From a virus, in the IMG/VR virus record IMGVR_UViG_3300036860_000057, positions 1-64,000 of that record: a DNA stretch of 64,000 nucleotides. One strand, given 5' to 3'. Position 1 is the stretch's first letter. The number at the start of each line of letters is the position of its first letter. A model generated the notes under the pieces. The model searched no databases. It was not told the origin of the DNA and saw only the letters and a program-made list of their open reading frames with translations. Below are positions 6,955 through 52,339 of this stretch, in pieces. The translations under genes and the position numbers were made by a program.

Positions 6955-8210
6955 TAGAAAGCTCCTTGTTTCATGTCAGATTTTTCAGACCACCTACTAA
7001 TCACTGGCAGCATCTCCAGATAATTTCTACATTCATAGAACTCATTAGCCAACTCCAACCACTCTTCAGGTGTGAATGTTATGTTGGTAAATGGTTGTCT
7101 TTCACAAGCATATTGCAGCGCTCGATTCACCAGACTTGAGTTATATTTTTTCTCTGTCACAATTACCTGAAGGATTGTCAGCGCTCCTTCAGCATGTCCT
7201 ACAGAAATCTCATCCAGTATGTCGAAGACACGCTGGACATGATCAGTATCTACAAACCACAGGAACTCAGGCATTGCTAAAATTTCCTCCACAAATTGTT
7301 GTGCAGTGTTCCCTGCAAGGCGATAGTCATTATAATCTTTAGAACTTCCTTGTCCAAAGAACTTAACTTCTGCATCTAATATATCTGCTAACTTAAAGGC
7401 TGCTGACCACTCAGACTGAGTGTTATCAGGAACAATGATTTTTTTCTTAGTGTTAGCTAGCAGTCTCTTTAGTTCTTGAGTCTGTTCACTCTCAGGATCA
7501 CTAAATCCTTCGATTGCTGAGAGTGAAATAGCAGGCAACCCGTCCTGCTCCGCAGTGAGTTGGTCGATGCTTCCGAACAGGATAATTACCAGTTCTTTAT
7601 TGATCAGGTGTCGTCCTAGCACTGATGGACGATTGAACGATTTTTTGCCCCAGTAGCGCCTAGGATTCACTCCAACAGGCCATGTCTTGGTAGGTGATGC
7701 TCTATACTGAAATATATCCACTTCACTCTTGTCTGGATAGCCTCGATAAAAGGGTAATACATAGGCATCTTTTTCAAAATCATATCCTAGCATGTGACTG
7801 TCTATTGTTTCATCTGATAAAAGTCTGCTATGCAAATATTCTCTTTTATCTGGTGTTAGTTGACTGTGCCAGAAGGTGATCCAAATACTAGGAACTGGGC
7901 CTCTATATTCAGATGAAGAAGCTGTAACTACTTTCTCAGGAAGAATACCTTCCCGATCAGCAATCCATTTCACGGCCTGTAAGAATGATAAGTTCTCTTG
8001 TTTCGTTACATAAGAGAAAATATCTACATAGATTCCACAAGAGTAACACTTAGCTCCATCATTATAGACATGAAGACTTGGATTGTGGTCATTATGCCAC
8101 AAACATTTTACTTTGTTGTCTTGATTTATAGTCTCATAAAGGCTCACTATTTGAGACATTGAGACTCTGGACTTTATTTTCTTTGTGTCGTAAACCAGAT
8201 TGTCTCTCAT
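6954..8210 (-). CDS. DnaG-like primase
   Basis: A 418-residue protein with an N-terminal CHC2 zinc finger (Cys36, His39, Cys55, Cys58) followed by a TOPRIM-like region (about 205-300), including SIDQLTAEQDG and VPDNTQSEWSAAFKLA. It would make RNA primers for replication with the DnaB-like helicase. The first TOPRIM acidic residue, usually Glu before the Gly, appears as Phe-Gly (ILFGSIDQL), a possible divergence at a catalytic position. The N-terminal 25 codons overlap the tail of the HNH gene upstream. Confidence 0.85.
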   Translation of the reverse strand: MRDNLVYDTKKIKSRVSMSQIVSLYETINQDNKVKCLWHNDHNPSLHVYNDGAKCYSCGIYVDIFSYVTKQENLSFLQAVKWIADREGILPEKVVTASSSEYRGPVPSIWITFWHSQLTPDKREYLHSRLLSDETIDSHMLGYDFEKDAYVLPFYRGYPDKSEVDIFQYRASPTKTWPVGVNPRRYWGKKSFNRPSVLGRHLINKELVIILFGSIDQLTAEQDGLPAISLSAIEGFSDPESEQTQELKRLLANTKKKIIVPDNTQSEWSAAFKLADILDAEVKFFGQGSSKDYNDYRLAGNTAQQFVEEILAMPEFLWFVDTDHVQRVFDILDEISVGHAEGALTILQVIVTEKKYNSSLVNRALQYACERQPFTNITFTPEEWLELANEFYECRNYLEMLPVISRWSEKSDMKQGAF

Positions 8211-9114
8211 AATATTTCCTAAACAATTCAGCAGCTATTAATATCTTATATCCCGTATGACTATCTAATTCTTGTGGATATTTATCATTCTTTATTGAAT
8301 TACAACTTCTACACAACCTCACTGCATTGCCGGGCTTAAGCAGATAACCTTTAGAGAACGGATAAACATGATCCACACATAGCTTGTTGATAGAACCACA
8401 TACTACACAAGATTTCTGGAATTTCTTGAGTGCCCTGTCCATCTCAGGAGTCCATTCTATTTTGGACAACTCCCGTTTTTCATTTTTCAATCTACTATAT
8501 TCTTTTGTCTTGGAGAGTCCGTGTGTTGTCAGCATATTCTTTATTTTACATCCACAACTAGTAGTATCCCCACAAGCTAGACTATAGCCTGAGACTATTT
8601 TTTCATTTCCACAGTCACATTGGCACTTCCAAGTTGATTGTCTATTTTTAGTGCTTCCTTCTCTGGAGATTACTGTGAGTCTGCCAAAACGTTTCCCAGC
8701 TAAATTTTTAAGGCTACGTTCAGATACCCGCTCTTTATTGAGACATCCACAACTCTTAGTTTTTCCTGATACTAAACTAGAACGAAAAACAACTCTTTCA
8801 TTCCCACAATCACACAAACACTTCCAGTAGTTTGATCTATTACTGGCCTTCTGATTTATTTTTTCTGTTACAACTAGTCTTCCAAATCTTTGTCCAACAA
8901 GATTCTTAAAATTTCTTTTACTTAAACTTTCCTTATGATAACATCCACAACTTACAATCCTACCCGCAACTATATTTGTGCCAAGAATTACCTTTTCTAT
9001 GCCACAATCACACTGACATAACCACTTTACACTACCACGCCTATCCCTACCAGACTCTTCTATTATCGTCAATCTACCAAATCTTTGCCCCACTAATTCT
9101 AGTTTCTTACTCAT
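8134..9114 (-). CDS. HNH homing endonuclease with three zinc-ribbon repeats
   Basis: A 326-residue protein with three tandem modules near residues 7-65, 72-130 and 137-195. Each starts like GQRFGRLTI, carries a CxCxCG pair and ends in SCGC; they are likely DNA-binding zinc ribbons. The C-terminal HNH nuclease has CVVCG, a central DHVYPFSKGY and CRSCNSIKND. It resembles the gene at 44409-45176, so the element has spread within this genome. It sits between replication genes and overlaps the primase start by 77 bases, as expected for a free-standing mobile endonuclease. Confidence 0.9.
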   Translation of the reverse strand: MSKKLELVGQRFGRLTIIEESGRDRRGSVKWLCQCDCGIEKVILGTNIVAGRIVSCGCYHKESLSKRNFKNLVGQRFGRLVVTEKINQKASNRSNYWKCLCDCGNERVVFRSSLVSGKTKSCGCLNKERVSERSLKNLAGKRFGRLTVISREGSTKNRQSTWKCQCDCGNEKIVSGYSLACGDTTSCGCKIKNMLTTHGLSKTKEYSRLKNEKRELSKIEWTPEMDRALKKFQKSCVVCGSINKLCVDHVYPFSKGYLLKPGNAVRLCRSCNSIKNDKYPQELDSHTGYKILIAAELFRKYYERQSGLRHKENKVQSLNVSNSEPL

Positions 9115-12521: not shown

Positions 12522-12586
12522 TTCTTCTGGAGAGGCTCGAACTCTCAACTGCCTTGCGGCATTTTGCCAATTAAACTACAGAAGAA
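12522..12586 (-). ncRNA. tRNA-like element without an anticodon loop
   Basis: A 65-nt minus-strand element with an acceptor stem (TCTTCTG/CAGAAGA), a normal D-arm (TAGTTTAATTGGCAAAAT) and a perfect T-arm (GAGAG-TTCGAGC-CTCTC). Where the 17-nt anticodon arm should be there is only TGCC-GCAA-GGCA, a four-pair stem with a GNRA tetraloop, so there is no anticodon. It may be a structural domain of the surrounding large RNA or a tRNA mimic. Confidence 0.7.
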
Positions 12587-12635
12587 ACCACTTCCACTGA
12601 TATATACAATGGGTTCGACAGTTGCCACTGTCTAG

Positions 12636-12708
12636 TGCCCCTACATGGATTTGAACCATGATCCATCGCTTAGAAGGCGATGGCACTTTCCGTTGTGCTA
12701 TAGAGACA
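12636..12708 (-). tRNA. tRNA-Arg (TCT)
   Basis: 73 nt. Acceptor TGTCTCT/AGGGGCA is seven pairs with G-U wobbles. The anticodon arm is ATCGC-CTTCTAA-GCGAT with anticodon TCT, which reads AGA, and the T-arm contains GGTTCAAATCC. No CCA is encoded. AGA-reading tRNAs are commonly carried by AT-rich phages. It sits inside the 1-kb structured transcript. Confidence 0.92.
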
Positions 12709-13119: not shown

Positions 13120-13148
13120 AGAATACCATAGGAAAATATTATTGTCAA
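13120..13148 (-). promoter_or_regulatory. Strong promoter of the structured RNA
   Basis: On the minus strand TTGACA and TATTCT are separated by exactly 17 bases, predicting a start near 13113. The -35 box begins five bases after the stop of the gene at 13153, and it shares the extended form ACTTGACA with three other minus-strand promoters here. Confidence 0.8.
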
Positions 13149-13740: not shown

Positions 13741-13860
13741 TTATTGTCTGCTAACTTCTGAGTAAGAGATAGAATCACTGATCTGATGATCAGGATGAGC
13801 CTTATCATAGGATGCTGCTACAATCATTGCTATGATGAAAGCGATGAGTATCTTGTCCAT
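13741..13860 (-). CDS. Small membrane or secreted protein
   Basis: A 39-residue open frame, MDKILIAFIIAMIVAAS followed by a polar tail rich in His, Asp and Ser. GAGG lies seven bases before the ATG, and the stop is nine bases before the next start. One hydrophobic helix, either a signal peptide or membrane anchor. Function unknown. Confidence 0.6.
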   Translation of the reverse strand: MDKILIAFIIAMIVAASYDKAHPDHQISDSISYSEVSRQ

Positions 13861-13883
13861 TGGTATGCCTCGAAACGATCTAA

Positions 13884-13932
13884 AAATATCCTAAACGTTA
13901 TAGCACTATGGTACTATAAGAATAGGATATTT
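13884..13932. repeat. Nested inverted repeat before the small secreted genes
   Basis: AAATATCCTA (13884-13893) pairs with TAGGATATTT (13923-13932), and inside it TTATAG pairs with CTATAA. The hairpin lies 24 bases upstream of the 39-residue gene and may act as an operator, a leader hairpin or an RNA-processing site. Confidence 0.6.
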
Positions 13933-13963
13933 ACAAATATTTTGAGGCTGTATAACAGAATTG

Positions 13964-14227
13964 TTAGTGACCTAAAAGTTTCGTGAAGATTTTCCTGAGA
14001 AATGATTTAGGTTTAGGAGGAGTTGGTTCATCAAGTCCTAATAATATGTCCACTGATCTGTATTGTCTATATCGCAGCATAACTTTTAGCTTGTGGCGAC
14101 ACTGATCATGCACCTTGAAAGGCACGCCCTTATAATTAAAGATCACTAATGATCTCAGTAGAGGCATGTCACAAACTGGACACTTGTCCAAAAATAAGTG
14201 AGGCCAAGTCATTACCATTCTCTTCAT
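13964..14227 (-). CDS. Small Cys/His zinc-type protein
   Basis: An 87-residue basic protein with CPVC at about residue 16 and a later HDQCRHK, enough for a zinc site, and a Pro/Lys-rich C-terminal tail (PTPPKPKSFLRK). Its ATG overlaps the TGA of the lipoprotein gene upstream. Not recognised. Confidence 0.65.
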   Translation of the reverse strand: MKRMVMTWPHLFLDKCPVCDMPLLRSLVIFNYKGVPFKVHDQCRHKLKVMLRYRQYRSVDILLGLDEPTPPKPKSFLRKIFTKLLGH

Positions 14228-23476: not shown

Positions 23477-23505
23477 ATTATATTCCTATTTTATAGTGTT
23501 GTCAA
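23477..23505 (-). promoter_or_regulatory. Promoter of the DUF932 gene
   Basis: On the minus strand TTGACA and TATAAT are exactly 17 bases apart. The -35 box lies inside the last codons of the gene upstream. Confidence 0.8.
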
Positions 23506-24008: not shown

Positions 24009-24074
24009 GGACCTGCTTGGAGTCGAACCAAGTTCTTGTCCCAACCTACGGGACAATCGATACCCATCAGGCCC
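24009..24074 (-). ncRNA. D-arm-reduced tRNA-like element, 66 nt
   Basis: Acceptor GGGCCTG/CAGGTCC is seven pairs and the T-arm CTTGG-TTCGACT-CCAAG is perfect. Between them are 11 unpaired bases and one long arm, TTGTCCC-GTAGGTT-GGGACAA, seven pairs with a seven-base loop. There is no proper D-arm. If the loop is an anticodon loop, T33 is present and the anticodon would be AGG (Pro), but T at position 37 is unusual. It is either a D-armless tRNA or a tRNA mimic. Same transcript as the 65-residue gene upstream. Confidence 0.65.
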
Positions 24075-24329: not shown

Positions 24330-24376
24330 TGGTGCAGCAGAGACTCGAACTCTGTGTAGGCCCACCTACCACACCA
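24330..24376 (-). ncRNA. 47-nt minimal tRNA-like element
   Basis: Acceptor TGGTGTG/TGCACCA has seven pairs and the T-arm CAGAG-TTCGAGT-CTCTG is perfect with a canonical T-loop. D and anticodon arms are replaced by one five-pair hairpin, GTAGG-TGGG-CCTAC. All but two bases are in these elements. It begins about 20 bases after a predicted transcription start, so it looks like a purposeful first product of the transcript rather than a chance remnant. Confidence 0.7.
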
Positions 24377-24402: not shown

Positions 24403-24432
24403 ATTCTATAATCAGATCAGTGATTGTGTCAA
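24403..24432 (-). promoter_or_regulatory. Promoter of the tRNA-like/small-protein unit
   Basis: On the minus strand TTGACA is followed 16 bases later by TATAGA or 18 bases later by TAGAAT. It carries the extended AATCACTTGACA form. Confidence 0.65.
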
Positions 24433-24436
24433 GTGA

Positions 24437-24925
24437 TTAGTATTTGTTATGAAGGTGTTTCCAGACCTTTCCTAGTTTTATACGAGATATGGCAACTTCA
24501 CTTACATTGTATATCTTAGCTATTTTACTCTGCTTGATTTTATTGCTATTTAGTAATTTTATTATCTCTATTACTTGCTCTTCTGTTAATTTAGCACTAC
24601 CATGATTCTCTCCAATAGACTTAACAATCCTTCCTTTGGATTTACAGTCTTTCATATTGTCATCTTGTGTACCTAGTTTGAGGTGATTAGGATTAACACA
24701 AGAAGGATTATCACAGAGATGCATCACTAGTTTATTATCCGGTATGTCTCCATTTACTAACATCCACGACAATCTGTGTGCTCTGTATCTCTTGTGATCA
24801 ATAGCAATAATTCCATAATTATGATGATCTTTGTGCCCTAACCATTCCCAGCACTCACTATCTGATTTCTTGTTTATTTTGCTCCAAAAGTATTCAATTG
24901 GATTCATCTTTCCAAATTTGCTCAT
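24437..24925 (-). CDS. HNH homing endonuclease (HNH_3 type)
   Basis: A 162-residue protein with the HNH pattern CWEWLG, HRLSWMLVNGDIP, HLCDNPSCVNPNHLKLGT and DNMKDC, followed by a C-terminal helix-turn-helix (EEQVIEIIKLL, QSKIAKIYNVSEVAISRIK) for DNA recognition. The start at 24925 has AAGGA seven bases upstream. It is a free-standing mobile endonuclease of phage type, just upstream of the tRNA-like unit. Confidence 0.9.
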   Translation of the reverse strand: MSKFGKMNPIEYFWSKINKKSDSECWEWLGHKDHHNYGIIAIDHKRYRAHRLSWMLVNGDIPDNKLVMHLCDNPSCVNPNHLKLGTQDDNMKDCKSKGRIVKSIGENHGSAKLTEEQVIEIIKLLNSNKIKQSKIAKIYNVSEVAISRIKLGKVWKHLHNKY

Positions 24926-24944
24926 AATTTGTTCCTTCATTTAC

Positions 24945-43814: not shown

Positions 43815-44389
43815 TGCCCCAATATGGCCCTACTGACGAACAGAATCAAGAATACACCGATCTTCAAGAAGAGATAGAGAATAAGTTCAAGGATATAGGA
43901 TCAGAATATAAAAATGGTAATCTCTCATCTGACGAGTTTGAGAAGAAGATGAGAGATGCCATTATTGACCATCTAACTGCTCTTGCCGTTTTAGGAAAGG
44001 GAGGAGAGTTAGATGAAGATGATATAGATGATCTTACTGATTTCACTGATGGAATTCTTGATCTCCTTGAAGAGTACGTCTTGTTTGTCAGGAACCCAGA
44101 TGAGTTCTCAGAAGATTACCTGAGATGGCGCTCTGGTCTGTATAGTAATGCTAGACAGGTTTTCATGAGATTTACCATGCCTCGTGATATATGGATTATT
44201 CTTCCTGAGATGCCAGGAGATAATTGTCTGGGGGATGGAAAATGTGGTTGCAGTTGGGACATTTCAGTATATGAAGATGGAACAATCGAGGCAACGTGGG
44301 TATTGGGTGACACATTTCACTGCGAAATATGCATTTCAAATAGCATTGAGTATAGTCCGTATGTAATATCTGCTGGTGATCAGGAGTGA
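43814..44389 (+). CDS. Putative head morphogenesis protein
   Basis: A 191-residue acidic protein starting at the last base of the portal stop. Helical N-terminal half; the C-terminal half has a Cys-rich block (DNCLGDGKCGCSWD ... TFHCEICISNS) like the C-terminal Cys/His segment of SPP1 gp7-type minor head proteins. Position after the portal gene fits. The full minor-head domain is not evident. Confidence 0.5.
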   Translation: MPQYGPTDEQNQEYTDLQEEIENKFKDIGSEYKNGNLSSDEFEKKMRDAIIDHLTALAVLGKGGELDEDDIDDLTDFTDGILDLLEEYVLFVRNPDEFSEDYLRWRSGLYSNARQVFMRFTMPRDIWIILPEMPGDNCLGDGKCGCSWDISVYEDGTIEATWVLGDTFHCEICISNSIEYSPYVISAGDQE

Positions 44390-44408
44390 TTTGTGGTATA
44401 GTATAAAT

Positions 44409-45176
44409 ATGGGATTTACAAAAGTTCTTGATTTAATTGGAAATAAATATGGGGATTTTGTAGTTACTAACAGGATCAAGGGAAGTAAAAACAAACCCGC
44501 AAAACAGGAACTTACTTGTTTGGTATGTGGAAATGTAAGAACACCTACTACTAACAATCTTAAAAGATATAAATGGAAGCATGAAGAGATTTGTAATAAT
44601 TGGTATCTTGAAGACTATGACAGAAATCTTATTGGTAAATCTTTTGGATACTTAGATGTGATGTATCGAACAAGAATAACACCAACTGGCGTTCCTTATT
44701 ATATGTGCAGGTGTAAATGTGGAAATACCAAAGAAGTTCGAGGAGTTCATATTAAAAGAGGAAAAACTTTAAGTTGTGGATGTTATAGAAAGAGTCTGTT
44801 AACAAAGCACGGACTTTATAAAACACCAGAATACAGAAGATGGTATGTAAACAAGAGGAGAGAAAGACACATCAAATATGATAGCTATTGGACTCCTCAA
44901 ATGGCTATTATGTTAAAGGAATCTCAGTCTAGTTGTGTGGTCTGTAAATCCCAAGATAGGCTTGAAATTGATCATGTAAATCCTTTATCTGAAGGATATG
45001 GATTGTATCCCGGAAACGCTATTATTTTATGTCGCCTGTGTAATAGAACAAAGAAAGTTAGTAGGTTAGATGATCTTCCCCCAGACTGGTCTGATAAGAT
45101 CATAGATGCTATGCTAGACTTCAAAATCCTCTGGCAAAGCAGACACAGTATTAAGCTAGAGACAGAGACTATATAG
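44409..45176 (+). CDS. HNH homing endonuclease with zinc-ribbon repeats
   Basis: A 255-residue protein with two zinc-ribbon-like modules (LIGNKYGDFVV...CLVCGN; LIGKSFGYLDV...CKCGN...SCGC) and a C-terminal HNH domain (CVVCKS, DHVNPLSEGY, CRLCNRTKK). It is clearly related to the gene at 8134-9114 but with one module less. ATG at 44409 has no good binding site. It interrupts the head gene cluster and ends inside a terminator hairpin. Confidence 0.9.
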   Translation: MGFTKVLDLIGNKYGDFVVTNRIKGSKNKPAKQELTCLVCGNVRTPTTNNLKRYKWKHEEICNNWYLEDYDRNLIGKSFGYLDVMYRTRITPTGVPYYMCRCKCGNTKEVRGVHIKRGKTLSCGCYRKSLLTKHGLYKTPEYRRWYVNKRRERHIKYDSYWTPQMAIMLKESQSSCVVCKSQDRLEIDHVNPLSEGYGLYPGNAIILCRLCNRTKKVSRLDDLPPDWSDKIIDAMLDFKILWQSRHSIKLETETI

Positions 45177-49200: not shown

Positions 49201-49250
49201 ATGTGGTTCGGGGATAACCACATAAAACACCTCCGTTCTTTAACAATTTA
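49201..49250 (+). promoter_or_regulatory. boxB/boxA-like antitermination leader
   Basis: An eight-pair hairpin ATGTGGTT/AACCACAT (49201-49223) is followed by GTTCTTTAACAATTTA (49235-49250). The latter matches the rRNA-operon boxA, as I recall the E. coli sequence GCTCTTTAACAATTTA, at all but one position. The order hairpin then boxA is that of rRNA leaders, where NusB/NusE bind boxA RNA and make RNA polymerase ignore terminators. Confidence 0.75.
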
Positions 49251-49252
49251 AT

Positions 49253-49324
49253 GCGTGTGTGGTGTTAATGGTAGCATCACACTCTTCCAAAGTGAAGGTT
49301 AGGGTTCGAGTCCCTACACACGCA
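49253..49324 (+). tRNA. tRNA-Gly (TCC)
   Basis: 72 nt. Acceptor GCGTGTG/CACACGC, loop CTTCCAA with anticodon TCC (reads GGA), T-arm TAGGG-TTCGAGT-CCCTA, discriminator A, no encoded CCA. Starts two bases after boxA. Confidence 0.93.
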
Positions 49325-49361
49325 CAAGCTGGGGTGTTCCCAGCATAGCAAGGAGACACTT

Positions 49362-49442
49362 ATGTACTTCGTGCCGCTTCTCTCGTCTACAGGTCAAATC
49401 CTCCCCGATTGGCTTAGGCAAAAGAAGCTATCGTCACCGTAG
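49362..49442 (+). CDS. Possible 26-residue peptide
   Basis: AAGGAG lies seven bases before an ATG that opens 26 codons (MYFVPLLSSTGQ at start). It lies between two tRNAs. Could be chance; no similarity known. Confidence 0.3.
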   Translation: MYFVPLLSSTGQILPDWLRQKKLSSP

Positions 49443-49465
49443 TAAAGTGTAACTTCCGGCTATAA

Positions 49466-49490
49466 GGGAGGGTGAAAGTCCCTCCCACCA
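49466..49490 (+). other. GC-rich minihelix ending in ACCA
   Basis: GGGAGGG-TGAAAGT-CCCTCCC, seven pairs with a seven-base loop, followed directly by ACCA one base before tRNA-Trp. It resembles an acceptor-stem minihelix, but could be a processing or pausing hairpin. Confidence 0.45.
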
Positions 49491-49491
49491 T

Positions 49492-49562
49492 ACATCTGTG
49501 ATCTAATGGTAAGAGCACAATCTCCAAAATTGTGAATCCTCGTCCGAATCGAGGCAGATGTG
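49492..49562 (+). tRNA. tRNA-Trp (CCA)
   Basis: 71 nt. Acceptor ACATCTG/CAGATGT with G discriminator as in most Trp tRNAs, anticodon arm ACAAT-CTCCAAA-ATTGT with anticodon CCA, T-arm CCTCG-TCCGAAT-CGAGG. The T-loop has C at its second position, a small deviation. Confidence 0.9.
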
Positions 49563-49596
49563 CTGACCAGTTATCATCATTCCAAAGGAGGAATAA

Positions 49597-49752
49597 ATGT
49601 TCAACTGGGGCCGTATAAGAACGGTGCTATTGGGGTTGCTTCTTATTGCAGCAGGACTAATTCTGGCGTTCAATCTGAACTTCACCAACATGAATTATGT
49701 CCTTGCTGTACTGGCAATCTTCGATGGCGTTCTATGGATTATATTTCCATAG
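49597..49752 (+). CDS. Small membrane protein inside the tRNA cluster
   Basis: A 51-residue protein with an excellent binding site (AAAGGAGG). MFNWGRIRTVLLGLLLIAAG begins it; two hydrophobic helices follow (TVLLGLLLIAAGLILAF; VLAVLAIFDGVLWIIF). Its place within a tRNA operon is odd. Function unknown. Confidence 0.7.
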   Translation: MFNWGRIRTVLLGLLLIAAGLILAFNLNFTNMNYVLAVLAIFDGVLWIIFP

Positions 49753-49758
49753 AAAAAT

Positions 49759-49803
49759 GGAAGGTCTGATACTGGAGTAAGATGTTCGAACCATCAGCCT
49801 TCC
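49759..49803 (+). ncRNA. Possible T-arm/acceptor tRNA-like hairpin
   Basis: GGAAGGT/GCCTTCC form a seven-pair acceptor and GATG-TTCGAAC-CATC a four-pair T-arm; no other arm exists (45 nt). However, CTGAT can pair with ATCAG instead, giving a longer simple hairpin, so the tRNA-like reading is uncertain. Confidence 0.4.
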
Positions 49804-49834
49804 AGTTGCCCATGAGGGCATTTTCCTGCGGATT

Positions 49835-49868
49835 GAGGGGAGTGAACTGAAGGCACTCCCCTCTTTAT
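49835..49868 (+). terminator. Terminator-like hairpin inside the tRNA cluster
   Basis: Perfect ten-pair stem GAGGGGAGTG/CACTCCCCTC, loop nine, followed by TTTATT, one base before tRNA-Thr. Readthrough would need antitermination, which the boxA leader could supply. Confidence 0.75.
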
Positions 49869-49869
49869 T

Positions 49870-49941
49870 GCCAACATAGCACAATGGTAGTGCAAATCTT
49901 TTGTAAAGATTAGGCTGAGAGTTCGAATCCCTCTGTTGGCT
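49870..49941 (+). tRNA. tRNA-Thr (TGT)
   Basis: 72 nt. Acceptor GCCAACA/TGTTGGC, anticodon arm AATCT-TTTGTAA-AGATT with anticodon TGT (reads ACA), T-arm GAGAG-TTCGAAT-CCCTC with one A-C mismatch, discriminator T, no encoded CCA. Confidence 0.92.
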
Positions 49942-50009
49942 CTTAGGGCAGTAAGTGTGGGGCAAGGCTTAGGCATAACCTTGAATATCTGTACTGCCCT
50001 ATATAAATT

Positions 50010-50120
50010 ATGAGAGACATATTATTTATTGTTGTATATGTAGCTGGTGAGTTAGTTGCAGTCCTGACAGATTGTGTAATTCTTGTTGGTGCAGTTCTGT
50101 ACGTCATATTGAAATGGTAA
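50010..50120 (+). CDS. Possible 36-residue membrane peptide
   Basis: ATG at 50010 opens 36 codons, nearly all hydrophobic (MRDILFIVVYVAGELVAVL...VILVGAVLYVILKW). No good binding site. Composition argues for a real membrane peptide. Confidence 0.45.
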   Translation: MRDILFIVVYVAGELVAVLTDCVILVGAVLYVILKW

Positions 50121-50128
50121 TTATAGAT

Positions 50129-50184
50129 GGGCCAATTATTCCGGTGAATGCTAGCTATGGCGGATTCGACTCCCGCTTGGTCCG
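50129..50184 (+). ncRNA. 56-nt minimal tRNA-like element
   Basis: Acceptor GGGCCAA/TTGGTCC (seven pairs) with G discriminator. The T-arm, directly adjacent as in tRNA, has loop TTCGACT and a stem of four pairs plus one A-C mismatch. Between them are only 24 bases with a four-pair hairpin ATTC-CGGT-GAAT. No anticodon arm. Closely parallels the 47-nt element at 24330. Confidence 0.65.
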
Positions 50185-50346
50185 CCGTAACCTGTACGGC
50201 GCAGAGGAGACGACACTCAATCAGTGCCAATGTTGAAGGTAAGATAGTTAAGCCCAGTAAATGTCTGGTATCCCAGAGGCCATGCTACTGAGAATATAAC
50301 TGGCTGTGAAACTGATTAGCCGCCTTATTCAAGAGGAACACAAGAA
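50185..50346 (+). other. Spacer after the tRNA cluster
   Basis: Contains GCCGTAACCTGTACGGC, a short hairpin just after the tRNA-like element. Otherwise no gene or clear structure seen. Confidence 0.4.
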
Positions 50347-51155: not shown

Positions 51156-51776
51156 ATGACAGTTGGAGAAATGGCAATAAGTGGAGAGGTATCAGCACGG
51201 CTAATTAAAGGTCATGTGCAAGCCCCTCTATCGTGGAAAATTCGTAATTCGCTTCGTCCTTCATTTATTTCAGGTTTACTTGGTTATAAAGCAGCCCAGA
51301 CACTCTCTAATCTGACAGGAATCCCTACTCTTGTAGCTGATCTCAGAGCAGTCAAGATTGATGGTAGGACTGGTCAGAGAATTGATTATGGCGTAGTTAG
51401 TAGAAAACTAGTAACTACAGCTTTTGTCAACTTCCTGGTGGATATGCTTCAGGTAGACACTACTGAGATTGGAGACTTCAAGTTTCATGACAGTGGTGTA
51501 GGAACAACTGCTGAGAATGCTGGTGATACAGGAATTGAGACAACTGATGGTGAGTCTCGTGCTACTGGTTCCCAGACAGAGGGTGCATCAGCTAATATTT
51601 ACAAGTCAGTTGGAACGATTGCTTATACGACTACTAAAGCAATCACTGAGCATGGTGTGTTTAGTCAATCCACTGGTGGAACGTTGATGGATCGTTCTGT
51701 GTTTACTGCTATCAATGTGGTCAACGGCGATCAAATTGAATTCACATATTCGCTGACTGCAAGTAGCGGTGGCTAA
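51156..51776 (+). CDS. Structural protein, probably tail or fibre related
   Basis: A 206-residue Thr/Gly/Ser-rich beta-type protein (FHDSGVGTTAENAGDTGIE; SQSTGGTLMDRSVF). ATAAGGAGATATT precedes the ATG. Such composition is typical of phage structural decoration or fibre proteins. Not recognised precisely. A LAGLIDADG gene on the other strand overlaps its last four bases. Confidence 0.6.
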   Translation: MTVGEMAISGEVSARLIKGHVQAPLSWKIRNSLRPSFISGLLGYKAAQTLSNLTGIPTLVADLRAVKIDGRTGQRIDYGVVSRKLVTTAFVNFLVDMLQVDTTEIGDFKFHDSGVGTTAENAGDTGIETTDGESRATGSQTEGASANIYKSVGTIAYTTTKAITEHGVFSQSTGGTLMDRSVFTAINVVNGDQIEFTYSLTASSGG

Positions 51777-52339
51777 GAGCCTCTCTTATTAAGTTGTTGC
51801 ATTAAATCATAAGATGCTCTTTGTTTTTCAATATCTAAATTATATTCAGGAATAGGTAATAGTTCTTGATGTGTAATGGCAATTAGAGCCTGCCTCTTCT
51901 TTCGTATGAGATAAGGCTCTATTTGTTTTAACAGTGTAAGGGCAGCATCAGAGTTTATTTGTATTTGGTATCTGGTTGTGTGTTTTCTATTTGATGGCTC
52001 CCACACAACTATAGAACCAACACCAATTTGATCAAGAATCCATTGCATTACAAAAATATTATTATTTGTAAATGCAACACGAATAGATATTTTGTTTCTG
52101 CTTTTATACATAAATATTGATCCATCAGCATCAATAAAGCCCGCAATGTAGGCCGATATAGTTGGAACTAATACGTTGCACTGTGATCCAGATCGGTATC
52201 GGGCTTCTCCAGAACATTTCCTTGAGCAAAACACTTGCTCATAGTCTGGATAGAATCTACTTGTTTGTCCAGGAGGACATACATCAAACTCTTCTTTACA
52301 AGAAGGGCAGATTTTCTTAATTGGAATTGTCTTTGCCAT
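51773..52339 (-). CDS. LAGLIDADG homing endonuclease with zinc ribbon
   Basis: A 188-residue protein. The N-terminal zinc ribbon has CPSC (about 12) and CSRKC (about 38); then AYIAGFIDADGSIF is the LAGLIDADG helix with catalytic Asp, followed by the expected strands (SIRVAFTNNN, RYQIQINS) and helix (ALTLLKQIEPYL). Single-motif enzymes act as dimers. It lies on the opposite strand between two structural genes; AAGGAG precedes the ATG. Confidence 0.9.
   Translation of the reverse strand: MAKTIPIKKICPSCKEEFDVCPPGQTSRFYPDYEQVFCSRKCSGEARYRSGSQCNVLVPTISAYIAGFIDADGSIFMYKSRNKISIRVAFTNNNIFVMQWILDQIGVGSIVVWEPSNRKHTTRYQIQINSDAALTLLKQIEPYLIRKKRQALIAITHQELLPIPEYNLDIEKQRASYDLMQQLNKRGS

Follow-up and report, generated by a model that had tools for sequence, protein, structure and literature searches.

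Phage transfer RNAs (tRNAs) are usually explained through their anticodons, either as a supply for particular codons or as an escape from anticodon nucleases. What purpose can be served by a tRNA-shaped phage gene in which there is no anticodon arm at all? Such an element is found at positions 12523..12585 on the minus strand of the DNA analysed here, referred to as the window, which comprises the first 64,000 nucleotides (nt) of the 78,573-bp virus record IMGVR_UViG_3300036860_000057 of IMG/VR. The best explanation that we can offer is that it is a tRNA body without an anticodon arm, that it belongs to a class of such elements in phages, and that the class acts as punctuation in phage transcripts; taken as a whole, we give this explanation a probability of about 0.5.

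The 63-nt element reads, from 12585 to 12523, TCTTCTG-TA-GTTT-AATTGGCA-AAAT-GCCGCAAGGCAGTT-GAGAG-TTCGAGC-CTCTC-CAGAAGA, followed by an unpaired A at 12522 that resembles A73 of a tRNA. The 5′ strand of the acceptor (TCTTCTG, 12579..12585) forms seven of seven pairs with CAGAAGA at 12523-12529, and is followed by U8 and A9 (12578-12577; the tRNA numbering is our own assignment) and by a D-arm, GTTT-AATTGGCA-AAAT (12561..12576), which has a 4-bp stem and an 8-nt loop and carries A14, A15, G18G19 and A21. A 14-nt linker, GCCGCAAGGCAGTT (12547..12560), then stands in place of positions 26-48 of a normal tRNA, where 22-23 nt holding the anticodon arm are usual. The T-arm, GAGAG-TTCGAGC-CTCTC (12530..12546), has a perfect stem, and U48, the final base of the linker, can form a Levitt pair with A15. 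A sequence-only reading of this DNA had described a tRNA-like element with well-formed acceptor, D-arm and T-arm, in which a GCAA-capped hairpin replaces the anticodon arm, and both parts of this description were confirmed. The mini-hairpin, (T)GCC-GCAA-GGC(A), occupies 12561-12550 on the minus strand; its 4-bp form, TGCC-GCAA-GGCA, and the D-stem both need U25, so that two full stems compete for one base.

The element has all of the features that mark this design, namely an acceptor of 6-7 pairs, TA at positions 8-9, a D-arm with GG, a linker of 8-18 nt, a T-stem and R15-Y48, and the anticodon arm of a tRNA (5 bp with a 7-nt loop) is absent. A descriptor scan of the record found it to be the only element with acceptor, D-arm and T-arm that holds a GNRA-capped hairpin, and 40 first-order Markov sequences, matched to the record in length and dinucleotide composition, yielded none with a GNRA cap or an equal pairing score. 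Scanned alone with the Rfam tRNA model (RF00005), it scored 42.5 bits (E 2.2e-8; gathering score 29), in an alignment that skips the model positions of the anticodon arm. It gave no Rfam match in the search of the whole window and no ARAGORN call, and blastn of the element alone hit fragments of ordinary phage tRNAs along with other short stretches, in no case over 80% of its length. It therefore shares with tRNA the 7-bp acceptor, U8, the D-arm, the T-arm, the Levitt pair 15-48 and a score above gathering, but unlike tRNA it has neither an anticodon arm nor an anticodon loop, and for this reason it cannot decode. It is a tRNA by homology that fails in the defining feature of decoding, and we are highly confident in describing it as a tRNA body without an anticodon arm.

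Four protein scans and blastn of the 1-kb region around the element revealed no close relative of this phage, and its terminase had distant matches only (about 22-28% identity); relatives were therefore sought by the design of the element. A first pattern scan keyed to the GCAA hairpin returned 70 loci, mostly variable arms of tRNA-Ser. A GCAA hairpin beside the T-arm is common in class-II tRNAs, which is a warning for scans keyed to the hairpin. The second such scan gave 14 matches, 13 of them by chance, and the remaining one, L013, was rejected as a member on the poor pairing of its acceptor (score 3) and on its position about 1 kb from a 387-aa open reading frame (ORF) that appears integrase-like by eye. 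The third gave 30 matches, of which one was real (L098, GGTTCAG-TA-GTTT-AAGGGGTA-AAAC-CACGCAAGTGAT-AGAGG-TTCAAAT-CCTCT-CTGAACT). In a fourth scan of viral contigs the linker was left free (TAGTTNARNNGGNANAAN-N(12-22)-GTTCRANNC) and acceptor and T-stem tests were then applied; from 96 viral stretches, 98 matches including the window were obtained and 55 passed. Applied to bacterial genomes, this pattern produced 75 matches, of which 14 passed, and a second type of D-arm, TAGCT, gave at least 119 stretches in viral contigs, with at least 87 passing. After removal of identical copies the collected set held at least 139 distinct elements, made up of at least 127 from viruses, 11 from bacterial genomes and that of the window. 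All counts given below over 139, or over 127 viral, elements are among the matches listed; the patterns span two D-arm types and linkers of 8-18 nt, and the range and frequency of the class may be wider.

When 16 small loci were submitted to Rfam, 12 of their 14 passing elements reached the tRNA threshold, so database entries given as undetermined tRNAs may include members of the class; ARAGORN called two of the 127 viral elements. When named phages carrying an element were sought, the only matches were Roseburia phage Jekyll and one unannotated 'Bacteriophage sp.' record, both adjoining the site in contig L171, and the element was not seen at that place in Jekyll. Identical armless elements occur in two Clostridium metagenome-assembled genomes (L241 and L269), and the chromosome of Flavobacterium davisii (L245) carries the same one as viral contig L159. 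Neighbouring tRNA-like elements with 19-nt linkers beside 17-nt ones were seen at L142 4739 (-) and L156 6915 (+) and are possibly intermediate forms. Another viral contig has a tRNA-Ala(UGC)-like element with anticodon arm and T-arm and without a D-arm (L049 11545-11598, +).

Three lines of evidence for the class are independent of how its members were selected. The first is pair 15-48, which was not selected for. Among the 139 elements it is A-U in 76, G-C in 54 and another combination in 9; a broader set of descriptor matches has A-U or G-C at this pair in 122 of 129 short and 287 of 346 normal elements. In an alignment of 54 elements, in which acceptor and T-stem were selected for and 15-48 was not, there were 27 A-U, 26 G-C and one other, with a covariation score of 1.00 versus 0.25 in shuffles. 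The acceptor was assessed in 158 distinct viral matches chosen only by a 5/5 T-stem; it pairs 7/7 in 89 and by at least six pairs in 120, while permuted 3′ strands give 7/7 in 0.7% and at least six pairs in 3.1%.

A family of nine contigs (L118, L174, L155, L119, L128, L139, L178, L134 and L133) has the element 14-15 nt before the ATG of the same gene, whose small product (83-95 aa) looks by eye like a membrane protein. The downstream proteins are 30-98% identical, and between some members just 30-55%; the upstream gene differs, being SSB in L118 and another protein in the others. The elements themselves are 66-98% identical, with 98.9% of cells paired and 27 double-change cells versus 8.6 in shuffles. 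Compensatory changes fall in the acceptor, the T-stem and the mini-hairpin, one pair of which is U-A, C-G or G-C. Three further comparisons have diverged flanks: L349/L365 with L366, where the upstream protein is 39% identical, the element follows it by 4-5 nt and both linkers are of 8 nt; L293 with L307, where the acceptors are different and fully paired; and L344 with L375. Since the armless form is kept with diverged flanks and compensatory changes, recent decay cannot explain the nine-contig family and the other pairs, and by these comparisons the armless form can be conserved and is not always a recent deletion. At the level of sequence we have demonstrated the anatomy of these elements and the fact that they recur, their conserved place in at least one family, and covariation that involves the acceptor, the T-stem, the mini-hairpin and 15-48.

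Linker lengths run from 8 to 18 nt, which are the limits of the search pattern, and a hairpin of at least 3 bp is absent from 47 of the 48 that measure 8-11 nt. Among the longer linkers 76 of 91 can form a hairpin versus 60 after shuffling (22 of 31 versus 14.7 at 12-15 nt, and 54 of 60 versus 45.3 at 16-18 nt), a modest enrichment. The anticodon arm is therefore dispensable and its replacement free. The acceptors are unrelated in sequence, with 131 distinct 5′ strands among the 139, and G3-U70 is present in only seven (pair 3-70 of the window element is U-A), which together argue that no shared amino-acid identity is kept.

In genomic placement, 46 of the 127 viral elements have a tRNA within 1 kb, all 46 on the strand of that tRNA, and 76 have no tRNA in the flanking stretch examined. 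The ORFs on either side are both on the strand of the element in 58 of 127 and both opposite in eight. A same-strand ORF ends within 60 nt upstream of 51 elements and one starts within 60 nt downstream of 49, with both in 27; the opposite-strand counterparts are 19, 23 and four, and both an ORF end and an ORF start lie within 60 nt in 67 of 842 ordinary tRNAs. The downstream genes vary (primase/helicase in L122, a weak match to a double-stranded-DNA-binding protein in L098, capsid genes near the L171 site in a relative), so the element does not appear to be tied to one gene function.

We propose that in these elements a class-I tRNA body, which comprises acceptor, D-arm and T-arm with the elbow and the Levitt pair, has had its 17-nt anticodon arm swapped for a minimal bridge, which in the window element would be the GCAA-capped mini-hairpin, and that the window element belongs to a class spread over many phages. 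Decoding would be impossible, and enzymes that read only the body would still recognise it. RNase P would act on the 5′ end, RNase Z or exonucleases would act on the 3′ end, where CCA would be added, and the elbow-modifying enzymes would act as well. Host tRNA maturation could then excise the intergenic element from phage transcripts, and the excision would set the ends of neighbouring RNAs and release a stable small RNA. The conserved parts are those read by RNase P, RNase Z, the CCA-adding enzyme and the elbow modifiers, and the lost part is that read by decoding on the ribosome and by anticodon nucleases. Because the body is kept, the decoding part is lost and no amino-acid identity is kept, punctuation in cis is preferred, and then a decoy. 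As a mechanism punctuation in cis is tentative, and we would put it somewhat short of an even chance; from the sequence features we infer that the element may fold in the cell, be cleaved by RNase P and RNase Z, and have an effect on the phage.

Several observations weigh against this explanation. In ViennaRNA the minimum-free-energy (MFE) structure of the window element is not a cloverleaf, the centroid keeps only the acceptor and the mini-hairpin, and the fold z-score is merely -1.0 to -1.6. A covariance model, R1, built from 54 other elements with the window left out, gives the window element 54.1 bits, but it scores ordinary tRNAs as high and does not separate armless from normal; the score therefore confirms the tRNA body only, and R1 was abandoned as a detector. 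The class is rare: by the same descriptor, 959 kb of sequence from 112 loci collected for other purposes contained 103 normal tRNAs and no short element, and with such rarity beside normal tRNAs rare deletions could contribute. Some short elements look like tRNAs from which a part has been deleted, other loci rich in tRNAs also contain truncated tRNA-like hits of various kinds (12 short versus 303 of normal length), and the 139 certainly include some decaying tRNAs. ORFs of at least 150 aa enclose 18 of the 127 viral elements, and beside the viral elements neither promoters (4 of 127 versus 2 on the opposite strand) nor terminators (5 of 127 versus 3 at random places) are enriched. The window element follows by 49 nt a normal tRNA that is itself a would-be processing site, and sits in a 1-kb stretch without long ORFs rather than between two tightly spaced genes. 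As no relative of this phage was found, conservation is demonstrated for the class and not for the window copy.

A rival explanation is that the window element is a pseudo-tRNA formed by recent deletion, in which some 9 nt disappeared from the anticodon arm of a normal class-I tRNA and the GCAA hairpin stayed behind as a remnant. Outside the anticodon arm all dimensions are those of a canonical tRNA, with a body that we take to be tRNA-Asn-like; position 26, a variable loop of 5 nt and two closing pairs are open to interpretation as remnants, and short elements are rare beside normal tRNAs. Partial tRNAs are also commonplace in prokaryote genomes (PMC9897764). However, the window element has perfect stems throughout and retains A15-U48, long conservation with compensatory changes is seen in other armless elements, four non-canonical elements occur in this one genome (see below), and we estimate that a 4-nt remnant would be GNRA by chance in only about 1 of 32 cases. 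Neither PF00589 nor PF00239 was matched in the record, where positive controls were detected; with no integrase or resolvase to leave att fragments, an att-site tRNA fragment of an integrating element was ruled out. The sequence-only reading had noted that a normal anticodon arm in relatives would make the element a simple deletion; at the level of the class the relatives found are armless as well, none of them coming from relatives of this phage. A fresh deletion is rather unlikely, and the window copy is likely to be a selected member of the class. Also unlikely, in our opinion, is a decoy or sponge, in which the phage would profit because the processed RNA ties up a host factor that binds tRNA bodies, be it RNase P, EF-Tu, a modification enzyme, or a toxin or defence nuclease that attacks the acceptor or elbow. 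It agrees with the higher passing rate in viral contigs (54 of 97 matches, versus 14 of 75 in the 257-Gb bacterial-genome collection with the same pattern) and with the lack of a common acceptor sequence, by which any target would read the body only, and phage tRNAs have been proposed to counter tRNA-targeting defences (PMC10264068). A decoy gives no reason to expect the tight and co-directional placement between genes.

Two other explanations would join the element to a different or a larger RNA. The first lead was a Deinococcus-type bacterial Y RNA, which would bind Ro/Rsr protein and PNPase; the Deinococcus_Y_RNA model (RF01053) aligns with 12610-12485 at 26.5 bits, and this type likewise has a GCAA-capped arm in the place of the anticodon. 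This score, and the 18.2 bits of the element alone, compare with a gathering score of 80 and with 42.5 bits for tRNA, and RF01053 had no match at E 10 in the record. The 78.6-kb record, possibly a fragment, contains no TROVE gene, and no DUF2828 match, a search in which the positive controls were also silent. The YrlA RNAs (RF02553), including the copy beside the Ro-like gene of phage LeBron, are circularly permuted (PMC11472068); the order in LeBron is T-acceptor-D, whereas the window element is unpermuted with D-hairpin-T. The Y RNA was dropped on element order, the absence of RF01053 at E 10 and the lower score than tRNA, and we find it very improbable; bacterial Y RNAs (YrlA RF02553 and RF01053) are nevertheless tRNA mimics, like the window element. 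The YrlA-type RNA of mycobacteriophage LeBron, beside Ro-like gene 53, was seen at L002 5287-5395 (+) with 39.8 bits, below gathering, and the LeBron Ro-like protein has matches in 676 phage records.

The other explanation came from the sequence-only reading, which took the element for a possible building block of an ornate 1-kb RNA, its GCAA loop being docked into a receptor there. The element shares with an ordinary tRNA-Arg(UCU) (12635..12707, minus strand, called by ARAGORN and Rfam, 49 nt upstream on the same strand) a 1.1-kb stretch with no ORF longer than 66 aa, and GC is raised in the 1 kb without long ORFs. A promoter-like TTGACA-N17-TATTCT with TG before the second hexamer (13120..13148, minus strand) stands just upstream of this non-coding stretch, which makes the region a plausible transcript; promoter-like sites in the region are not in excess (three found versus 3.8 expected in shuffles). 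The whole 996 nt fold with a z of -2.4 (20 shuffles), but the minus-strand halves give -1.2 and -1.4, values no more extreme than the scatter among 34 coding-region controls (mean -0.35, sd 1.43). GNRA-capped hairpins number four versus 2.1 in mononucleotide shuffles, no exact 11-nt receptor was found in the region (one half-motif pair with a mismatch was seen), and Rfam gave no match there to large-RNA families such as GOLLD and ROOL. Among the 139 elements GNRA caps only 4 of the 30 tetraloop-capped linkers, so the loop is not common to related elements. The docking idea was dropped mainly because the replacement in the linker is free and GCAA is just one way to close a mini-hairpin; the 1-kb region is not demonstrably a structured RNA, and an ornate RNA of this kind is scarcely credible.

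Other known RNAs show partial likeness to the armless tRNA body. The tRNA-like domain of transfer-messenger RNA (tmRNA) is also a tRNA body without an anticodon arm; the window element differs in having a D-stem, U-A at 3-70 and no tag frame, and ARAGORN called no tmRNA in the window, so this identity was rejected. The nearest recorded oddity in a phage tRNA cluster is T4 rnaC, which ends in a T-arm and acceptor-like pairing; rnaC and rnaD are small RNAs in a phage tRNA cluster, like the window element, but they have 119-139 nt, large inserts and no acceptor-D-T design. The t-elements, mascRNA and other tRNA-like processing sites are tRNA-shaped elements that make RNA ends; t-elements and mascRNA come from organelles and animal long non-coding RNAs, unlike the phage elements, and the likeness noted is one of function. 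No description of anticodon-arm-less phage tRNAs was found in the freely available literature searched, which included PMC10264068 and PMC13015707.

The window element is accompanied in its own genome by other reduced forms. A scored scan of the record for acceptor and T-arm found four non-canonical tRNA-like elements with a score of at least 25.5, the window element included; in 200 Markov sequences a score of at least 25 is expected 0.02 times per genome and none reached 28. One (24331..24375, minus strand, score 28) consists of an acceptor, one 4-bp hairpin and a T-arm, without a D-arm or anticodon arm. Another (24009..24074, minus strand, score 30.5) has an acceptor, a reduced D region, a hairpin GTCCC-GTAGGTT-GGGAC and a T-arm. 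The least certain of the four (50129..50183, plus strand, score 25.5), beside tRNA-Thr, has an acceptor, a 4-bp D hairpin and a T-arm with one stem mismatch, and its MFE fold is unsupportive (z 0.31). A weaker minihelix of acceptor and 4-bp T-arm (49758..49804, plus strand) was absent from the stricter scored scan. The middles of these elements differ, and only the acceptor and T-arm are common to them.

Sigma-70-like promoter matches were noted at 23477-23505 (-) and 24403-24432 (-), 12/12 and 11/12, the latter directly upstream of the element at 24375-24331. The stretch 49240-50200 is a second array of tRNAs (Gly, Trp, Thr), in which two tRNA-like minihelices and strong hairpins also occur, and folds far better than coding controls on the plus strand (z -3.3 and -5.1). 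The intergenic stretch 13850-13999, an AT-rich hairpin between two small genes, has a fold z of -4.4 on the minus strand. Putative HNH/LAGLIDADG-like homing endonuclease ORFs lie at 8134-9114, 44376-45176, 24437-24940 and 51773-52339; HNH was matched by Pfam only in the first, and the other three were assigned by eye.

Armless phage elements probably serve a purpose other than the reading of codons. It is an evenly balanced proposition that many phage lineages keep armless tRNA genes, from 57 nt upward, selected on the body alone as portable processing sites or decoys that exploit host tRNA maturation, and that the phage of the window has four or five graded versions, down to a 45-nt minihelix of acceptor, hairpin and T-arm. 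Counts of phage tRNAs would then be incomplete where they rely on ARAGORN, which misses nearly all of these elements, or mixed where they rely on the Rfam tRNA model, which calls most of them tRNAs. A conserved class without an anticodon arm could neither supply codons nor evade anticodon nucleases, and would mean that some tRNA-shaped genes of phages are kept for what the tRNA body does.
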